A stretch of 64,000 nt of DNA from Wenyingzhuangia aestuarii (lineage in GTDB: Bacteria > Bacteroidota > Bacteroidia > Flavobacteriales > Flavobacteriaceae), in contig NZ_JAATJG010000003.1 in assembly GCF_011927765.1 (NCBI RefSeq), positions 1 through 64,000 on the forward strand, given 5' to 3'. The position numbers and the translations under genes are program-made. Under the pieces are notes generated by a model, which saw nothing but the letters and a program-made list of their open reading frames with translations, had not been told where the DNA came from and did not search any database. Position 1 is the stretch's first letter. Every line of letters starts with the position of its first letter. Positions 175 through 50,141 of this stretch are shown here, in pieces.

Positions 175-387
175 AATAGCTGGCTTTTTTATATCCTTAT
201 TTTTACTTAGAGATTAAGAACTCTAAAATTTCACAAAACACTCTTTCTTTAATATTTTAAGCTTTTATTTCCCCAAAAACAAAGACTACTCATAGATATA
301 AAGGTTTCTTTTACATGTTATTTCATTCTACATTCAACCCCTAACCCCTTGTATCTGTTAGCTTTCTGAAAATAAACATCAATATGC

Positions 388-419
388 TTGACAACCCCTA
401 TTCTCAGATTGTATATTTG
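388..419 (+). promoter_or_regulatory. Bacteroidota-type promoter for queA
   Basis: TTG at 388-390 and TATATTTG at 412-419 have the form and spacing (21 bases) of the -33 and -7 elements used by the primary sigma factor of Bacteroidota. The ATG of queA follows 25 bases after the -7 box. This argues against reading the TTG at 388 as a start codon. Confidence 0.6.
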
Positions 420-444
420 CATCCTATCTAAAAACAACATATAC

Positions 445-1494
445 ATGAAGTTATCTGCATTTCATTTTGATTTACCTGAGGAATTGATAGCACAACATCC
501 AGCTGAATATAGAGATGAATCTCGTTTAATGGTATTAAACAGAAAAGAGCAAACTATAGAACATAAGACTTTTAAAGACGTAATTGACTATTTTGACGAT
601 GGTGATTTAATGGTCTTAAACAACACTAAAGTTTTCCCTGCTCGTATGTTTGGTAACAAGGAAAAAACGGGAGCTAGAATTGAAGTTTTCTTATTACGCG
701 AATTAAATGCTGAAAACCGTTTGTGGGATGTTTTAGTAGATCCTGCTCGTAAAATTAGAATTGGAAACAAATTATTTTTTGGCGAAGATGATTCTTTAGT
801 TGCTGAAGTAATTGACAACACCACTTCTAGAGGACGTACTTTACGTTTCTTATATGATGGTTCTTACGAAGAGTTTAGACAAAAATTAGAGGATTTAGGA
901 GAAACTCCAATTCCAAAACATATTGACAGAGCTGTTGAACCAGAAGACGAAGAACGTTTTCAAACAATTTATGCTAAAGAAGAAGGAGCTGTTGCAGCAC
1001 CTACGGCTGGATTACACTTTTCTAAACACCTAATGAAGCGTTTAGAAATTAAAGGTGTTGATTTTGCAGAATTAACTTTACATATTGGTTTAGGTACTTT
1101 TAACCCAGTTGAGGTAGAAGATTTGTCTAAACACAAAATGGACTCTGAAAAAATGAGCGTAAGTGAAGAAACTTGTGAAAAAGTAAACAACGCTATCAAC
1201 TCAAAACGTAGAGTTTGTGCAGTTGGAACAACTGTAATGAGATCTATAGAATCTACGGTTTCATCAAACGGAAGATTAAACCCATACACAGGTTGGACTA
1301 ATAAATTTATTTTCCCTCCTTACGAGTTTAGCATTGCTAACTGCATGATTACCAACTTACACCCATCTAAATCTACTTTAATGATGCAAGTTGCAGCCTT
1401 TGCAGGTTATGATTTTTTAATGAAAGCTTACGAAGAAGCAATTAAAGAAGGATACAAGTTTAGTACTTACGGAGATGCTATGTTGATTATCTAA
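445..1494 (+). CDS. queA: S-adenosylmethionine:tRNA ribosyltransferase-isomerase QueA
   Basis: 349 aa. QueA transfers and isomerises the ribose of SAM onto preQ1 in the wobble position of GUN tRNAs, making epoxyqueuosine in the cytoplasm. The protein begins [20 protein letters not shown] and continues with [22 protein letters not shown] and [10 protein letters not shown], all QueA signatures, and is of normal family length. The ATG at 445 is chosen because an upstream in-frame TTG (388) lies inside the promoter and would add non-conserved residues. It is a single-gene unit with its own promoter and a strong terminator at 1518-1550. No other queuosine gene is in view. Confidence 0.95.
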
Positions 1495-3656: not shown

Positions 3657-3770
3657 CGCTAAATTTTTAGTGTAATATAAGCCAATCTTGAACAATTTCA
3701 AATACTAAAAAAACACTATTTCAAATCAATTTCAACAATAATAATATGTATATTTACAACTGATAAGCTT

Positions 3771-3854
3771 TAGGGGTGTTTTGTAATAGTAAAACCTACA
3801 AAACTGAGAGTTACCCTTTGAACCTGAATAAGTTAGAACTTACGTAGGGAAAAG
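3771..3854 (+). promoter_or_regulatory. TPP riboswitch (THI element) of the thi operon
   Basis: The block contains AGGGGTG (3772-3778), ACTGAGAGTTACCC, TTTGAACCTGAATAAG and ACGTAGGGAA, the conserved THI-box segments in the right order. It lies in the leader of thiS, so thiamine diphosphate should switch off the whole operon. A short hairpin plus U-rich stretch follows at 3856-3880, then about 90 leader bases before the thiS ATG. Confidence 0.95.
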
Positions 3855-3855
3855 T

Positions 3856-3880
3856 GAGGTCATAGACCTCTTTTGTTATT
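3856..3880 (+). terminator. Putative riboswitch expression-platform hairpin
   Basis: GAGGTC-ATA-GACCTC (3856-3870) is followed by TTTTGTTATT. The short stem directly downstream of the aptamer could be the terminator formed when TPP is bound. An alternative antiterminator pairing was not resolved. Confidence 0.5.
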
Positions 3881-17711: not shown

Positions 17712-20700
17712 TTATTTCTTCATAATCACTCTAACATTCATTTCTTCAACTTTTTTAGTTGATAATGGAGATGGAGAACCAAATAACAAATCTTCAGAGC
17801 TTCCTGTTTTAGGAAAAGCCATTACTTCTCTAATAGATGCTTTTTTCTCTAAAATCATCATTAATCTATCTACTCCCCATGCAATACCTCCGTGTGGTGG
17901 TGCTCCGTAATGAAAAGCCTCATACATCGTGCCAACACTCTTTAACATTTCTTCTTTATTGTAACCCATGTTTTTATAGGTTGCTTCTAAAATTTCAGGT
18001 TTGTGAGCACGAACAGATCCTCCTCCTATCTCATAACCGTTTAAAATTAAATCGTATTGTTGTGCAATAATATTACCAATTTCATCTTCTTTACCCTTCA
18101 TATGTTTATCTAAATCATAAAGAGCAGGCATAGAGAATGGATTGTGTGTAAAAGTCCACCTACCTTCTTCTGTTTTTTCAAACATTGGGAAATCTACTAC
18201 CCAAGCAGGTCTTAATTCTTTAGGATTAATTAATTTTAACATAGCTCCTAATTCTTGACGAACTGCATCTAAAGCTTTGTTAGCAGTAGCATAATCCGCT
18301 GCCGAAAAATAAACGATATCTCCAACTTGCGCATCACACTTTAGTATGATATTTTTAGCAATCTCTTCTCCTAAAAACTTAATAATTGGAGACTGTAAAT
18401 CATTTTCATTTACAATAATATAAGCCAATCCTCCTAAGCCATGTTGCTGTGCAATAGAAGTTAACTTTTCTATTTGTCCTTTAGACATTCGTTTTCCTCC
18501 TTGTTCTTCTGCAGAAACTTTAATACACTTTACAATTCCACCTTCATCAATAGGTTTAGAGAACACTTGGAATGTGGTATCTTTTACAATATCTGTAATG
18601 TCTTGCATTTGCAATCCAAAACGTAAATCTGGTCTATCACAACCATATTTATCCATGGCATCTTTGTAGGTAATTACTTCAAATGGACGTAAAATCCATT
18701 TGTTACCATATATTTTCTTTACAATGGTATTAAACATCTCTGTATTCAAATCTATGATTTGTTGCATAGATGCATAAGCCATTTCTATATCTAACTGTGT
18801 AAATTCTGGTTGACGATCTCCACGAGAATCTTCATCACGGAAACAACGAGCTATTTGGAAATACTTTTCAAAACCACCAACCATCAACATTTGTTTGAAC
18901 TGCTGTGGTGCTTGTGGCAAGGTATAAAAAGAACCTGGTTGCTTACGAGTGGGTACAATAAATTCTCTTGCACCTTCATCTGTTCCCGCAGTTAAAATAG
19001 GAGTTTCTATTTCTAAAAACTCTTGTTCGTCTAACATGTCACGTAACAACTTAATTACTCTATGACGATTGACTACTGCTTTACGAACTTCTTGATTTCT
19101 ATGATCTAAAAACTTATATTCAAAACGAACAGCTTCGTTAGAACGCATTGCCTTTTTAATTTCAAAAGGTAAAGTTCTAGATAAGTTTAAAATATCTAAA
19201 TCTGTAGCTTCTAATTCAACTTTTCCTGTTCTTAATCCAGCGTTGTAATCACTTTCGCTACGTTGTACTATTTTACCTGAAACTGTAATGACAGATTCTG
19301 GTTTTAATTTCACCAATTCATCTAAGTTAGGGAATGATTCTCTACTTAAACGAACCTGGATAACCTCATAAGAAGAATCACGCAAATCAATAAACATCAA
19401 CTCTCCATGATCTCTAACGGAACTTACCCAACCTGCTAAAGTTACAGTTTCATCAATTGTTTCTTCAGAAATTTGAGTGATGACATGTGTTCTGTATTCT
19501 TCTTTAATAATTAAAGGAATTTCAGGTAACACTTCGTTAGTACTTAGTACTGAGTCCTTAGTATTAAGTTCTTCTGTAGTTTCACTAATCTTTGTGCTTT
19601 GTACTTGAGACTTTGTACTACCCGACAGGGTTTCCAAAATCATTTCACGAACTACATTTCCTGGAGCTCCTTTTCCTATTTTACCAATTACTTTTCCTAC
19701 TAAAACTCCTGATTTTCCTTTGTTACCACCTTTAATATCATTGGCAATTGCTTCGTTTTCAGCAATAGCAGCATTTACTGCTTCTTGAATTTGCTCAGTA
19801 GAAATAGTGTTATCAGCAAAGTATTTTTTATAATCAAAACTAGCATCTGCTAATAGAGATTCAATTGCTTTTTGAACCAATACAACAGTAACTTCTCCGT
19901 TTTTAAAAGATTTAAAAATAGAGATTAAATCATCTATATTTTTTATCTTATCATAATCTTCTGCCTTTAAATTATTGGTTAATGTTTTGGCTACAAACGC
20001 TACATCACCAACAGCATCAATTAAACTCATTACCGTTTTAGAACGCAAAGCATCTGCTGTAAAAAACTTAGCATCTTGAGGCAATACTTTTCCTTCAATC
20101 AACTTAGATTCCACAAAATATGGCAATACTTTAGGATCTACAGTAATTCCATCAACCACATTTTTAATAGCCACAAAAGGTAAATCTGGCTCAGAAATAT
20201 AACGATAATCTGCATCGTATTCTTTCTTACGCATTACCTTAGTTTGCTTTAATGCTTCATCCCACAAAACCGTAGTTTGATCGGGTCTAAATTCTTTATG
20301 TTCTAAAAAGTAATTTAATTGTTTTTCTATTTCTTCTTTTAAAGCCTCAACCATAAACTTGAATGAATTCAAGTTTTTAATCTCGGTACGAGGGTTTAAA
20401 ACATCTGTTCCTTTGATACGTAAAGACACCGAAACATCTGACTTAAACTGACCTTTGTCTAAGTTGGCTTCAGAAATCCCTAAGTTTTGCACAATACGTT
20501 GAATGTATTGTGCATAAGTAGATGCATCTTCTATATTACGAATACATGGTTTGGTTACAATTTCAATTAACGGAACCCCCGCTTTGTTAAAATCTACCAA
20601 AGAAATGGTTTTCTCGTGCACTAATTTAGCCGCATCTTCTTCTACATGTACTTGCTCTATCTGTACTGTAAACTGAGAACCATCATTACGATAACAAGCC

Positions 20701-21053
20701 ACTTCTCCATCAGGAATGATAGGGTTGTGAAACTGTGTAATCTGAATATTTTTAGGGTTATCTGGATATTCGTAATGTTTACGATCCCAAGATATTACTT
20801 CGTTAGAAAAAGTAGAGTTTACGGCCTTACCAAAATAAATAGCTTTGGTAATAGCTTCTTTATTAATGGCTGGTAAAACTCCCATCTGACCTGTACATAC
20901 CGGACAAATATTTGTGTTTGCTTGCTCACTTTCTTCGTTAGCACATCCACAAAACAATTTAGATTTTGTGTTTAAACGTACGTGCGTTTCAATTCCAGCT
21001 ACCAACTCTATGTTGTTTTCTTCTAGTAGCGTATTTAATCTATCTAATTCCAT
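17712..21053 (-). CDS. gatB-aspS: GatB-AspRS fusion: amidotransferase subunit B joined to aspartyl-tRNA synthetase
   Basis: 1113 aa in one uninterrupted frame. Residues 1-476 are GatB: cradle with GIETHVRLNTKSKLFCGC, zinc cysteines C35, C37, C50 and C53, YPDNPKNIQITQ, and a helical/YqeY tail ending GKIGKGAPGNVVREMILE. Residues about 477-518 are a low-complexity Ser/Thr/Glu linker. Residues 519-1113 are a complete bacterial AspRS: anticodon-binding OB fold (GWVSSVRDHGELMFIDLRD), motif 2 (RCFRDEDSRGDRQPEFTQLD), GAD insertion, and motif 3 (GIAWGVDRLMMI). H549 in RDHG is the residue linked to non-discriminating AspRS. The ATG overlaps the gatA stop by one base. The product should both charge tRNA-Asp/tRNA-Asn and take part in GatCAB transamidation. 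Confidence 0.93.
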   Translation of the reverse strand: MELDRLNTLLEENNIELVAGIETHVRLNTKSKLFCGCANEESEQANTNICPVCTGQMGVLPAINKEAITKAIYFGKAVNSTFSNEVISWDRKHYEYPDNPKNIQITQFHNPIIPDGEVACYRNDGSQFTVQIEQVHVEEDAAKLVHEKTISLVDFNKAGVPLIEIVTKPCIRNIEDASTYAQYIQRIVQNLGISEANLDKGQFKSDVSVSLRIKGTDVLNPRTEIKNLNSFKFMVEALKEEIEKQLNYFLEHKEFRPDQTTVLWDEALKQTKVMRKKEYDADYRYISEPDLPFVAIKNVVDGITVDPKVLPYFVESKLIEGKVLPQDAKFFTADALRSKTVMSLIDAVGDVAFVAKTLTNNLKAEDYDKIKNIDDLISIFKSFKNGEVTVVLVQKAIESLLADASFDYKKYFADNTISTEQIQEAVNAAIAENEAIANDIKGGNKGKSGVLVGKVIGKIGKGAPGNVVREMILETLSGSTKSQVQSTKISETTEELNTKDSVLSTNEVLPEIPLIIKEEYRTHVITQISEETIDETVTLAGWVSSVRDHGELMFIDLRDSSYEVIQVRLSRESFPNLDELVKLKPESVITVSGKIVQRSESDYNAGLRTGKVELEATDLDILNLSRTLPFEIKKAMRSNEAVRFEYKFLDHRNQEVRKAVVNRHRVIKLLRDMLDEQEFLEIETPILTAGTDEGAREFIVPTRKQPGSFYTLPQAPQQFKQMLMVGGFEKYFQIARCFRDEDSRGDRQPEFTQLDIEMAYASMQQIIDLNTEMFNTIVKKIYGNKWILRPFEVITYKDAMDKYGCDRPDLRFGLQMQDITDIVKDTTFQVFSKPIDEGGIVKCIKVSAEEQGGKRMSKGQIEKLTSIAQQHGLGGLAYIIVNENDLQSPIIKFLGEEIAKNIILKCDAQVGDIVYFSAADYATANKALDAVRQELGAMLKLINPKELRPAWVVDFPMFEKTEEGRWTFTHNPFSMPALYDLDKHMKGKEDEIGNIIAQQYDLILNGYEIGGGSVRAHKPEILEATYKNMGYNKEEMLKSVGTMYEAFHYGAPPHGGIAWGVDRLMMILEKKASIREVMAFPKTGSSEDLLFGSPSPLSTKKVEEMNVRVIMKK
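19500..19625 (-). other. Linker segment between GatB and AspRS, repeat-like DNA
   Basis: In the coding direction this segment consists of near-copies of short units: AGTACAAAG, AAGTACAAAGCACAAAG, CTTAATACTAAGGACTCAG and TACTAAGTACTAACG. Such tandem units are typical of flavobacterial intergenic spacers (from memory), and the thiS-thiC spacer is similar in style. It encodes a polar, probably disordered linker rich in S, T, K and E. No ATG or stop is present in frame. Confidence 0.65.
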
Positions 21054-22453: not shown

Positions 22454-22720
22454 CTAACCTTCAATTACTTTAGACACCACTAAATACCCATCTTTCTCTT
22501 TTGGAAAGTTTTCTTTAATGATTTGTTTGGTGATTTCTGAACTATTTTCAACAACATCTGCACGCAAATCGCCTATAGACACTGCATTTTTTGCATTTTG
22601 ATTTGATGAATTTTGATTGATTTCAGCATTTTTGATTACATCAAACAACTTATCCACCGCCTCAGAAGACTTTGCTCCTTTGATGCTAGACAAGATGTCT
22701 ACAGGCATTATTTTACTCAT
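22454..22720 (-). CDS. gatC: Divergent GatC subunit
   Basis: 88 aa. The C-terminal half (LRADVVENSSE...FPKEKDGYLVVSKVIEG) is the GatC belt that wraps the GatA-GatB interface. The N-terminal half (MSKIMPVDILSSIKGAKSSE) is unlike the usual GatC helical pair and contains an Asn/Ser-rich stretch near residues 34-46. Position directly upstream of gatA supports the assignment. An alternative start at residue 5 cannot be excluded. The first gene of the operon, with a TATTTTCG box upstream on the minus strand. Confidence 0.8.
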   Translation of the reverse strand: MSKIMPVDILSSIKGAKSSEAVDKLFDVIKNAEINQNSSNQNAKNAVSIGDLRADVVENSSEITKQIIKENFPKEKDGYLVVSKVIEG

Positions 22721-22822
22721 TTCTTTTGTTTTTTAAGTCAGACTTCAAGCCTGCGAAAATACAAAAGTTTTAGCGGAGTTAAAAGCTTTGAAAGTCTAAT
22801 CTTTAGACTAGATTAATTCCAC

Positions 22823-22864
22823 AAAAAAAACAGTCAAATTCCCTTTAAAAATCTGACTGTTTTC
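22823..22864 (-). terminator. Terminator downstream of the porin gene
   Basis: Minus strand: ACAGTCA, a 17-base loop, TGACTGT, then eight T. It closes the SLC13-porin unit. Confidence 0.75.
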
Positions 22865-22890: not shown

Positions 22891-24132
22891 TTATTTTATA
22901 CTTATCTGGTATTGCAATACTGCCATCCCTTTTCTATCTATTTCTTTTAGACTTGCAACATCAAAAACAGGTCTATATTGGTATCCTAAACTCAATTTAT
23001 TTCCATGCCCCTTTCCGTTTAAAAAGAAGTTTACTGTAAAGTCATACAACACCATTGCTTGCTCTAAAGCATCAAAATTTGAATATTGAACCGCAATATT
23101 TGGCTGAGTAATAACTTGCTTATTTACAGGAAACGCATACCCAAATTGGGTGTACCATGTAGTTCCTGTTCCTATCATAGGAAATCCGTTACCATCTCCA
23201 TTATAGGTAGTTCCTGAACTGCTATCAAATACAGAACCATTTGCATCTACAGATCTTATGTAGTTTTTACCAAAATCTAGATTGTAACAACCTAAATAAG
23301 CAGTAATTCCATGATTAACCTCTAAAGGTAAACTCAAGAAAGAATCCACAGCCCAATTTTTCATATCATACAAATTAGTAGCAGCTGATACAACATCTCC
23401 ATCGGCAAAAGCTTTTTCTTGAAACTGTCCTCCTATACCAATATTAAACACCTTCTTTTTGTTAATATAGGTTCCTGTTTGGTAAGATGATTTGTTAGAT
23501 TCCTCTTCAAAAAATTGATATTTTACATAAGTAGAAACTCTTTTTCTTGGTCTATTATTTGCAAAATCTACCTTTCCAACTGTAAGAGCTTTGGTTACTG
23601 TTATTGGGTTTGAAACTACCAATCTATAATCAAACTTAGCTACCTGTCCCTTAAACCAAACACTTAAATTACGACCTAAATCATCATCTTTATTCACTGT
23701 ATTTAAAGAAAACAATGGAGAATCTAAGCCCATTAATGATTTTGAAGAACGCACATTCCATCTATCCAAACCTTGCCACCCAGACTTTCCCAATCCAACC
23801 TCTAACTCTTTAGAGAAAGAATACTCCGCATACAAGTCTAACACTTGCAAAGGAAAATTTTGAGACTTATGATTAAAATTATTTCCTCCAAACATTGCAT
23901 ATGTATATATTTTAGGAGTAATTTGAGATGAAACAGGAATTCTTAACCTACGGATTGACACATCGGTATAACTATCTGTTTTTTCACCATTAATAGTAGT
24001 CCCCTCATTTAAATCAGAATATCTTGCCCAAAGTTGAGTTGTTATAGACCAATTTACTTTTGGTTTGTCCTGAGCTTTAAGCCCAACACTTAGCAACATT
24101 AACACGAGGACTATTTCCTTAATATTTTTCAT
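22891..24132 (-). CDS. Outer-membrane porin, OprP/phosphate-selective-porin-like
   Basis: 413 aa with a signal peptide (MKNIKEIVLVLMLLSVGLKA-Q). The mature part alternates aromatic and polar residues as in a beta barrel and ends with LQYQISIK. RRLRIPVSSQITPKIYTYAMFG and the LDLYAEYSFSKELEVGLGK segment resemble porin O/P family strands. The gene lies 18 bases after an SLC13-type transporter on the same strand. The pair may move the same anion or dicarboxylate across outer and inner membranes; this pairing is inference. Confidence 0.7.
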   Translation of the reverse strand: MKNIKEIVLVLMLLSVGLKAQDKPKVNWSITTQLWARYSDLNEGTTINGEKTDSYTDVSIRRLRIPVSSQITPKIYTYAMFGGNNFNHKSQNFPLQVLDLYAEYSFSKELEVGLGKSGWQGLDRWNVRSSKSLMGLDSPLFSLNTVNKDDDLGRNLSVWFKGQVAKFDYRLVVSNPITVTKALTVGKVDFANNRPRKRVSTYVKYQFFEEESNKSSYQTGTYINKKKVFNIGIGGQFQEKAFADGDVVSAATNLYDMKNWAVDSFLSLPLEVNHGITAYLGCYNLDFGKNYIRSVDANGSVFDSSSGTTYNGDGNGFPMIGTGTTWYTQFGYAFPVNKQVITQPNIAVQYSNFDALEQAMVLYDFTVNFFLNGKGHGNKLSLGYQYRPVFDVASLKEIDRKGMAVLQYQISIK

Positions 24133-49808: not shown

Positions 49809-49816
49809 TATATTTG
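49809..49816 (+). promoter_or_regulatory. -7 box (TATATTTG) of rpsO
   Basis: TATATTTG, 55 bases before the rpsO ATG; the transcript would begin just upstream of the leader hairpin. Confidence 0.5.
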
Positions 49817-49822
49817 CCGTCC

Positions 49823-49841
49823 GATTACCAAAGAGGTAATC
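49823..49841 (+). promoter_or_regulatory. Leader hairpin of rpsO
   Basis: GATTACC-AAAGA-GGTAATC forms a 7-bp perfect stem near the predicted 5' end of the rpsO mRNA. S15 autoregulates through structured leaders in several bacteria, so this could be an S15 binding site. No experiment supports this here. Confidence 0.45.
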
Positions 49842-49871
49842 TGCATAATAATCATTTACAAAAATATTAGC

Positions 49872-50141
49872 ATGTCATTATCAAAAGAAGCAAAAGCAGA
49901 GATTTTTGCAAAACACGGAAAGTCAGCTACTGACACAGGTTCTACAGAAGGTCAAATTGCATTATTCACAAAAAGAATTGCAGACTTAACTGAGCACTTA
50001 AAGAAAAACAGAAAAGATTACAACACACAACGTTCTTTAGTAAAGTTAGTTGGTAAACGTAGATCTTTACTAGATTACTTAACTAAGGTAGACATTTTAC
50101 GTTACCGTGCAATAGTTGCTGAATTAGGATTAAGAAAATAA
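49872..50141 (+). CDS. rpsO: 30S ribosomal protein S15
   Basis: 89 aa, normal length. LSKEAKAEIFAKHGKSATDTGSTEGQIALFTKRI and RSLVKLVGKRRSLLDYL are the conserved S15 segments that bind the central domain of 16S rRNA. Followed by a terminator, then pnp, an order that is common in bacteria. Confidence 0.97.
   Translation: MSLSKEAKAEIFAKHGKSATDTGSTEGQIALFTKRIADLTEHLKKNRKDYNTQRSLVKLVGKRRSLLDYLTKVDILRYRAIVAELGLRK

Follow-up and report, generated by a model that had tools for sequence, protein, structure and literature searches.

The window, a 64-kb stretch of the Wenyingzhuangia aestuarii genome (64,000 nucleotides), contains an operon with the gene order gatC-gatA-[gatB::aspS] (Table 1). The last gene is a single intact frame of 1113 codons on the minus strand, running from an ATG at 21053 to a stop codon that ends at 17712, in which the amidotransferase subunit GatB is joined to an aspartyl-tRNA synthetase (AspRS). 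No tRNA genes were found in the 64-kb window.

Table 1. Positions of the fused gene, its parts and the neighboring operon genes in the window.
Feature	Position	Strand	Evidence
gatB::aspS fusion gene, 1113 aa	17712..21053	-	Open frame; domains of GatB and AspRS in Pfam and NCBIfam; intact in all 80 kept relatives (best 80 of 561 candidates)
GatB catalytic domain, GatB_N PF02934, aa 18-298	20160..21002	-	Pfam E 4.5e-92
GatB C-terminal YqeY-like tail, GatB_Yqey PF02637, aa 354-476	19626..19994	-	Pfam E 5.5e-9
Linker, aa 477-518	19500..19625	-	Hypervariable low-complexity first part, then conserved LPEIPLIIK-type segment
AspRS anticodon-binding OB fold, tRNA_anti-codon PF01336, aa 537-622	19188..19445	-	Pfam E 1.4e-12
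His549 codon, in RDHG	19407..19409	-	Solved AspRSs that are named Asp/Asn ligases have His here
AspRS class II catalytic domain, tRNA-synt_2 PF00152, aa 640-1083	17805..19136	-	Pfam E 4.2e-106; aspS_bact
GAD insert PF02938, aa 831-928, inside the AspRS catalytic domain	18270..18563	-	Pfam E 4.1e-19
gatA, 466 aa	21053..22453	-	Amidase PF01425 E 5.8e-115; TIGR00132 best NCBIfam model
gatC, 88 aa, divergent, Asn-rich variable middle	22454..22720	-	Upstream of gatA in 81/81; PF02686 and profile match

The fused gene and its operon

The fused protein scores 343.8 bits against the NCBIfam gatB model TIGR00133 (cut-off 314.8) and 645.5 bits against aspS_bact (cut-off 373.85), so that one polypeptide passes both. 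Its AspRS half is of the bacterial type, with the OB fold, the class II core and the GAD insert all present, and it keeps the FRDE and G-x-DR motifs, which we take to be class II motifs 2 and 3, respectively. TIGR00132 is the best NCBIfam model for GatA, yet the score of 429.3 bits is under the model cut-off of 481.1. The gatC frame of the window has no Pfam match at E 0.001; its E value against PF02686 is 0.0087, below the gathering score, and the GatC of a relative passes with 3e-7. A seven-row profile matches the PDB GatC chain 3h0l_C at 6e-5. GatA, GatB and GatC are all encoded, the window's GatC being sub-threshold in Pfam and its GatA in the NCBIfam gatA model.

The best 80 of 561 candidate loci from relatives were kept, giving 81 sequences with the window. 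The frame is single and intact in 80/80 of them, and the 1-nt overlap of gatA with the fusion gene is retained in 80 of the 81 loci. Both halves are strongly conserved, with dN/dS between the window and its nearest relative (L010) of about 0.06 for GatB and about 0.05 for AspRS. The intact frames, the overlap and the low dN/dS exclude chance and a sequencing, frameshift or assembly artefact. Broken copies may be under-sampled because only the best 80 of the 561 candidates were kept. Of 171 positions that are near-invariant in 20 unfused GatBs, 85 are retained by 14 or more of the 15 fusions sampled and 86 fail this strict criterion.

The fusion is not confined to close relatives. Among 120 Flavobacteriaceae genomes, one per sampled genus, GatB was found in 20, always in a frame of 1115-1131 aa that also holds AspRS. 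It also occurs in eight genomes from a single family of a different order. The original prediction of GatB and AspRS in one 1113-codon frame at 17712-21053, in an operon with gatC and gatA, is borne out by these data, and the same domain order recurs in other proteins, namely in all 80 kept relatives (the best 80 of 561), in the 20 family genomes and in those of the other order.

A second AspRS and the routes to Asn-tRNAAsn

In the terms of the prediction, a separate functional gatB or aspS elsewhere in the genome would count against it. No separate gatB was found. A standalone AspRS gene is present on C1 (L001), and the fusion as the sole AspRS of the cell is therefore rejected; this alters the original idea but does not refute it. 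Two AspRSs, one standalone and one fused, occur in 20/20 carriers of the family sample, and exactly one in 98 of the 100 non-carriers; none was found in the non-carriers G034 and G051. The fused and standalone enzymes share only 37% identity, and the bit scores of the fused half against 1efw, 4wj3 and 6wom are nearly the same (454, 447 and 443, respectively); it is therefore unlikely that the fused half arose as a recent copy of the flavobacterial aspS. The fused AspRS is probably a dedicated second copy. A non-discriminating AspRS would charge both tRNAAsp and tRNAAsn; given the standalone AspRS, the fused one may serve tRNAAsn only.

The two AspRSs also differ in individual residues. The His of the RDHG loop in the OB fold, the residue of the non-discriminating type at a position with a role in tRNAAsn recognition, occurs in 81/81 fusions and in 0/49 standalones having a residue there. 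Among PDB structures the position is occupied by His in 4wj3, 4rmf, 5w25, 5gro and 4o2d, by Leu in 1c0a, 6hhv and 1efw, and by Lys in 6wom, which agrees with the naming of entries as Asp/Asn ligases. In the catalytic domain, all 81 fusions differ from all 50 standalones in having Ala715 (for Ser) and Asn971 (for His), so that substrate handling may differ as well.

The usual one-step asparaginyl-tRNA synthetase (AsnRS) was found in 34 of 41 genomes, in one of them with two internal stops. It was absent from the 2-Mb metagenome-assembled genome of L022, from those of five close relatives (L010-L014) and from the window's genome (G000), where nothing exceeded the cut-off. AsnRS was not found in the Wenyingzhuangia-Ochrovirga-Flavicella group, to which the window belongs. 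The enzyme appears to have been lost in the window's lineage, where no route to Asn-tRNAAsn other than the fusion is evident.

In many bacteria GatCAB serves instead to make Gln-tRNAGln, as stated in PMC4206432, where GatCAB recognition of tRNAAsn is attributed to the U1-A72 pair. Were that its role here, the fused AspRS would merely be a redundant tRNAAsp synthetase. GlnRS is present in 25/25 carriers tested, which disfavors the Gln pathway; the tail of GlnRS has no Pfam match. AsnA was found in 0/25 carriers and in 2/7 non-carriers of the same search. AsnB (TIGR01536) is missing in 12 of 20 carriers compared to 4 of 100 other genomes (Fisher p 1.6e-8, a test that ignores kinship); the other 8/20 have a TIGR01536 match, so asparagine synthetase is not replaced in every carrier. 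The presence of GlnRS and the absence of AsnA, and often of AsnB, point to Asn rather than Gln. A role in Gln-tRNAGln synthesis is also disfavored by the fusion partner, an AspRS with His549, by the lack of AsnRS in the window's group and by the run of Asn codons in the leader of relatives described below, and we regard it as highly improbable. Our reading is that the operon encodes a fused enzyme dedicated to Asn-tRNAAsn, to which we assign a probability of roughly 0.8.

The leader upstream of the operon in relatives

A short open reading frame with a run of Asn codons, together with terminator and antiterminator hairpins, precedes the operon in 51 of the 80 relatives (the best 80 of 561) and is missing from 29. 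It is absent before gatC in the window and from the AsnRS-less genomes. The leader is predicted to be an Asn attenuator. Its peptide motif, N-run-F-NN(P/S), is conserved in the 51 loci, and when the mononucleotides of one locus were shuffled 2000 times, a mini-ORF containing 8 or more Asn arose only twice. Strand 1, which lies in the coding end, is paired to strand 2 in 99% of cells, a figure that sliding lowers to 67% or less. For the terminator, 93% of cells are paired, compared to 66% or less after sliding, with 19 double-change cells against 8.9 in shuffles; in L024 its T run is interrupted.

These properties argue against a chance Asn mini-ORF in front of an ordinary terminator. Such an origin would be helped by the AT-rich region, in which AAT/AAC runs arise more easily. 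Furthermore, the leader model also scores 17-32 bits at other places of the window and of the loci, the covariation is thin (18 of the 19 double-change cells lie at one pair and two of five measures are not above shuffles), and helix 1:2 has none. On balance a chance origin seems improbable. Rfam has no match at the leader position in the leader-bearing L051 and L041. A similar leader at asnS was looked for and rejected: stretches of 19 carriers have no Asn mini-ORF there, and the best match of the leader model in these and in 8 other asnS loci has an E value of 0.11.

The distribution of the leader bears on carriers that have AsnRS, which is found in 19 of the 20 carriers of the family sample. 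In these organisms the fusion might be a dispensable relic that only the AsnRS-less group still needs, and the TIGR01536 protein of 8/20 carriers would fit such a view. Yet no broken copy occurs among the 80 relatives kept (the best of 561 candidates), with the sampling bias noted above, both halves are strongly conserved, and the Asn-run leader with its terminator precedes the operon in 21 of the 34 AsnRS-bearing carriers examined (it is missing in 13). A relic is thus an improbable explanation. The pathway in AsnRS-bearing carriers would rather be a tRNA-dependent supply of asparagine, often replacing asparagine synthetase, and where the leader is present, ribosome stalling at Asn codons would switch the operon on.

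The proposed particle and its known counterparts

According to the proposed mechanism, the AspRS half would aspartylate tRNAAsn, and the GatB half, with GatA and GatC, would then amidate the Asp on that tRNAAsn to Asn, while the standalone AspRS would handle tRNAAsp. Bacterial AspRS is normally a dimer, and the particle would thus have the composition (GatC-GatA-GatB::AspRS)2. The linker, some 40 residues long and predicted to be disordered, would hold both sites together, and the tethering may spare the release of mischarged Asp-tRNAAsn. The Wenyingzhuangia-Ochrovirga-Flavicella group, with neither AsnRS nor leader, would depend on the fusion as its only evident source of Asn-tRNAAsn. A single frame implies 1:1 tethering only as long as the chain stays whole, and the fusion protein could undergo post-translational cleavage.

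The linker is hypervariable in both sequence and length. In the 81 sequences its conservation is 0.26 over aa 476-500 and its length is 47-62 over the counted span, and between the window and L010 its dN/dS is about 0.36 (aa 477-508) compared to 0.05-0.06 in the enzyme halves. An AlphaFold prediction with an input of 35 rows gave a pLDDT of about 23-25 over aa 481-520, in line with predicted disorder; the mean pLDDT of the fusion, 62, is poor and makes the model uninformative on docking. With a linker so long and floppy, the two halves could be ordinary indirect-pathway enzymes whose joining in one chain brings co-expression and stoichiometry but no channelling. Such an arrangement would equally be dedicated to Asn-tRNAAsn. 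It is a serious but rather unlikely alternative: the 1-nt overlap already couples gatA to gatB::aspS, so that a fusion is unneeded for co-expression alone, all GatBs of the family sample are fused (20/20), the eight genomes of another order also carry the fusion, and the LPEIPLIIK-type segment before AspRS is conserved, unlike the remaining linker.

The core of the original prediction, a covalent transamidosome, is well supported by the family-wide conservation, the presence of GlnRS, the absence of AsnRS in the window's clade, the His of RDHG and the predicted Asn attenuator found in relatives, and is modified in that the AspRS half is a second copy. The complete picture is tentative, its chances being somewhat below even: a covalent transamidosome with a tRNAAsn-only AspRS would pass Asp-tRNAAsn to GatB unreleased, a marine flavobacterial group would have lost AsnRS and depend wholly on it, and many relatives would switch it on with a new class of Asn leader-peptide attenuator. 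Among the matches listed from the openly licensed PMC literature there is no description of a gatB::aspS fusion and no earlier one of the Asn leader. Channelling as a protection from Asp-tRNAAsn is hard to test because natural transamidosomes are transient; a fused one would have fixed stoichiometry and a linker that can be cut. The group without AsnRS constitutes a natural loss experiment, and in relatives with both AsnRS and the predicted attenuator one can see how the cell may balance the direct route against the indirect one.

The Asn-transamidosome of non-discriminating AspRS, GatCAB and tRNAAsn (3kfu, 4wj3) has the same enzymes and reaction, and each half of the fusion matches its chains. 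There, AspRS and GatB are separate chains, and the molecule name of the 3kfu AspRS marks it as archaeal-type, whereas in the fusion AspRS forms the C-terminal half of the chain that begins with GatB. Two-AspRS bacteria of the Deinococcus-Thermus group resemble the fusion carriers in using a second AspRS with GatCAB for Asn on tRNA, beside AsnRS and GlnRS and often without asparagine synthetase (PMC4206432). Their second AspRS is archaeal-type, a kind without the GAD insert, whereas that of the window is bacterial-type, with GAD, and fused.

Other fusions differ in their partners. The AspRS-GatC type mentioned in the original prediction exists as the NCBIfam model NF009460, likewise a synthetase-amidotransferase fusion of the same pathway, but with GatC rather than GatB; the window fusion scores 475.8 against its cut-off of 1379, with only the AspRS part matched. 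The gatC-gatA fusion of Mycobacterium smegmatis is also a fused amidotransferase polypeptide and, by the title of PMC7541841, contains no synthetase. Chain 3al0_C, GatC-linker-GluRS, links an amidotransferase subunit to its synthetase, as here, but belongs to the Gln pathway and looks engineered, since its molecule name lists a separate linker. GluRS2 of Helicobacter pylori is not known to be fused. Like the fused AspRS, it is an additional synthetase whose dedicated task is to mischarge tRNA for an amidotransferase, in this case in the Gln pathway (PMC9976931). For the leader, the counterpart is the Bacteroid-trp leader RF01692, found in L041, a peptide leader RNA of the same phylum that responds to Trp rather than Asn.

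Anatomy, conservation and spread of the fused gene

As the original prediction held, GatB and AspRS share one frame in an operon with gatC and gatA. Both halves exceed their NCBIfam cut-offs, and an intact single frame of identical design is found in all 80 kept relatives, the best 80 of 561 candidates from a scan of named genomes. Broken or unfused copies may be under-sampled because of this choice. The fused AspRS is of the bacterial type and lies C-terminal to GatB in the same chain (Pfam). The window's GatC is below the Pfam threshold, but was identified by a profile search, and Pfam recognises the GatC of one relative with the same operon. GatC of the window and its relatives contains an Asn-rich variable segment between two conserved parts.

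Features of the window and domains of the fused protein (aa, residues)
Feature	Position	Strand	Evidence or remark
gatC	22720-22454	minus	divergent; identified by profile search
gatA	22453-21053	minus	Pfam match; under NCBIfam gatA cut-off
gatB::aspS, 1113 codons	21053-17712	minus	Pfam and NCBIfam matches for both halves
GatB part	aa 18-298 and 354-476		Pfam
AspRS OB fold	aa 537-622		Pfam
AspRS class II core	aa 640-1083		Pfam
AspRS GAD insert	aa 831-928		Pfam
TPP riboswitch	3762-3867	+	Rfam
S15-Flavobacteria leader	49809-49874	+	Rfam

Strong purifying selection acts on both halves and far less on the linker: between the window and its nearest relative (L010), dN/dS is 0.031/0.534 for GatB, 0.037/0.725 for AspRS and 0.206/0.575 for the linker. 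In the predicted structure the pLDDT of the linker is about 23-25 over residues 481-520. T, Q, S, K and N are more frequent in the linker than in the remainder of the protein, and its tandem peptide repeats, e.g. PTTNNQQ, occur in several genera (relatives such as L026, L027, L028 and L033).

The kept relatives belong to genera that include Wenyingzhuangia, Ochrovirga, Flavicella, Polaribacter, Algibacter, Tamlana, Flavivirga, Confluentibacter, Mariniflexile, Aestuariibaculum and Flavobacterium. Mapping of the phylogenetic spread, proposed with the original prediction, placed the domain order in 20 of 120 Flavobacteriaceae genomes (one per genus, the window's among them), where GatB was found in a frame of 1115-1131 aa every time, and in eight genomes from one family of another order. 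The latter came from a search of 396 genomes of the class (E <= 1e-200), whose ten matches also comprise the window's genome and one other of its family. The eight are 58-70% identical to the window's fusion and all are preceded by gatA and gatC. Seven are full length and one (genome G643) stops at a contig edge; three matches cross a stop, positioned at the C-terminal end of the 1112-1120-aa frames. GatB is present in 316 of 392 genomes of the phylum; the frames among the matches listed, which do not include the fusion carriers, are 375-621 aa long and therefore unfused.

Two aspartyl-tRNA synthetases and the proposed supply of Asn-tRNA

The window's genome encodes three PF00152 proteins: the fusion, LysRS and a 585-aa AspRS. 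A separate functional aspS had been named beforehand as refuting the prediction. This gene is a separate aspS, but it modifies the prediction rather than refuting it: the fused enzyme is then an additional AspRS, probably a dedicated one. Each of the 20 carriers of the fusion has precisely two aspS_bact matches, of which one lies in the GatB frame; 98/100 non-carriers have one, and G034 and G051, both non-carriers, have none at threshold. The fused and standalone enzymes of the window's genome are 37% identical. Changes at one position in the RDxG loop of the OB fold presumably alter tRNAAsn recognition. The residue is His in all 81 fusions; among the standalone enzymes it is Lys in 46, Leu in two and Arg in one of 49, and a fiftieth has a gap. 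His is also found in 4wj3, 4rmf, 5w25 and 5gro, PDB entries named Asp/Asn ligase, and in 4o2d; the residue is Leu in 1c0a, 6hhv and 1efw and Lys in 6wom.

The fused AspRS would be the enzyme that loads Asp on tRNAAsn, and GatCAB, tethered via a linker predicted to be disordered, would amidate it. The particle would be a dimer, from which mischarged tRNA may stay unreleased. Two features of the sequences appear not to fit the proposed roles. Ala715 and Asn971 are invariant in the 81 fusions, compared to Ser and His in 50/50 standalone AspRSs. Moreover, 20 unfused GatBs share 171 near-invariant positions, of which 86 fail to be retained in 14 or more of the 15 fusions sampled.

Of the 120 family genomes, 118 have AsnRS. 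It is missing from the window's genome, which is 99.99% complete, and from G034, a 320-contig assembly that has no AspRS match either. AsnRS was also looked for in the window's genome together with those of 40 out of the 80 relatives; 34 of these 41 have it, G153 counted. It is absent from the window's genome, from those of L010-L014 (three Wenyingzhuangia, Ochrovirga pacifica and Flavicella marina, the top five of the relatives' list) and from a 2-Mb MAG (L022). The window's group therefore has no other visible route to Asn-tRNAAsn. In G153, a fusion-bearing MAG (L077), the sole asnS match (C7:131145-132314) is partial with two internal stops, which may reflect a further AsnRS in decay or a fault of assembly.

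Gene content points to asparagine for the GatCAB pathway here. Each of the 25 carriers tested, 20 from the sample and five named ones, has GlnRS and none has AsnA, compared to AsnA in two of seven non-carriers. Asparagine synthetase is lacking in 12/20 carriers vs 4/100 non-carriers (TIGR01536, E <= 1e-50; p 1.6e-8, not corrected for kinship). Among the matches listed, which cover seven of the eight matching carriers (all except G031), five carriers have only longer frames (607-642 aa) and two have a 572-aa frame. The GlnRS frame is 666-747 aa long in 24 of the 25 carriers and 574 aa in G097; in non-carriers it is 573-585 aa in five of seven and 693 aa in G078, and G100 has no match. Pfam has no match for the additional C-terminal part of the GlnRS of the window's genome (L196, C1:173300-176700).

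A predicted asparagine attenuator in relatives

In 51 of the 80 relatives, gatC is preceded by a short ORF of 14-16 codons, whose start is 110-160 nt before gatC in 48 of them. It encodes an Asn run and then F-N-N-P (in a few, N-T-P or N-N-S). On its 3' side are GGAAGGTTRTTG, with small variations, then CCTTCC and GGAAGG, and a run of at least six T in 50 of the 51 (that of L024 is interrupted). Together these elements are predicted to form an Asn attenuator. In the classic reading, a ribosome stalled at the Asn codons would free strand 2 for antitermination. Leader-peptide attenuation has been proposed before amino-acid operons of another flavobacterium (PMC9723704).

Pairing between strand 1, which lies in the last leader codons, and strand 2 is seen in 99% of cells vs at most 67% when slid; these columns hardly vary, and they show no double changes and no measure above shuffles. 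For the terminator, 93% of cells pair and there are 19 double-change cells, above all 500 shuffles, although 18 are at one pair; two measures, pairs with double changes and pair types, are not above shuffles. Relatedness was not controlled for in these figures. Mean energies are similar, -13.5 kcal/mol for the terminator (counting L020, cut in the analysis, as 0) and -12.0 kcal/mol for the antiterminator. Rfam has no match at the leader position in the two relatives searched (L051 and L041).

The patchy distribution of the attenuator does not fit the overall picture. The leader was not found in the window or L010-L014, and it is present in 21/34 AsnRS-bearing carriers examined vs 0/6 without AsnRS (p 0.007, L022 excluded, kinship not corrected). 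With a covariance model that gave its controls 128 and 110 bits, everything else scored at most 32.2, and no leader was found in the window or the 29 leaderless relatives. No Asn mini-ORF was found in the stretches fetched at asnS of 19 carriers.

Between gatC and the upstream gene, which ends at 22891, the window has a hairpin that resembles a terminator and carries a T run (22821-22862, minus strand); it was not among the matches of a terminator scan, and similar hairpins occur in L010, L011 and L013. Several leaderless operons, including the window's (22734-22761, minus strand), share a short sequence directly 5' of gatC, CTTGAAGTCTGACTTA or CTTAAAAGTTTGACTTT. It comes after a box resembling the TAnnTTTG consensus.

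Comparison with known systems

The reaction proposed for the fusion is already known. No GatB-AspRS fusion appears among the papers listed by searches of the openly licensed literature or in passages of a synthetase-database paper (PMC11580382). The AspRS-GatC fusion (NCBIfam NF009460) is an annotated cousin; it too joins a synthetase to an amidotransferase, as does 3al0_C, which is apparently engineered. In a survey of 547 genera (PMC4206432), extra AspRSs are listed for Deinococcus-Thermus and 15 other genera, mainly Actinobacteria and four Firmicutes; none is counted there in Bacteroidetes, which are placed among genera with AsnRS, GlnRS and GatCAB and without Asn synthetase. Some of these Bacteroidetes may be carriers in which the survey missed the fused AspRS. 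The GatB-AspRS fusion is classed as a new form of transamidosome, and the gene content of its carriers resembles the tRNA-dependent Asn synthesis of Deinococcus, Thermus and Bdellovibrio, as described in the same survey (PMC4206432).
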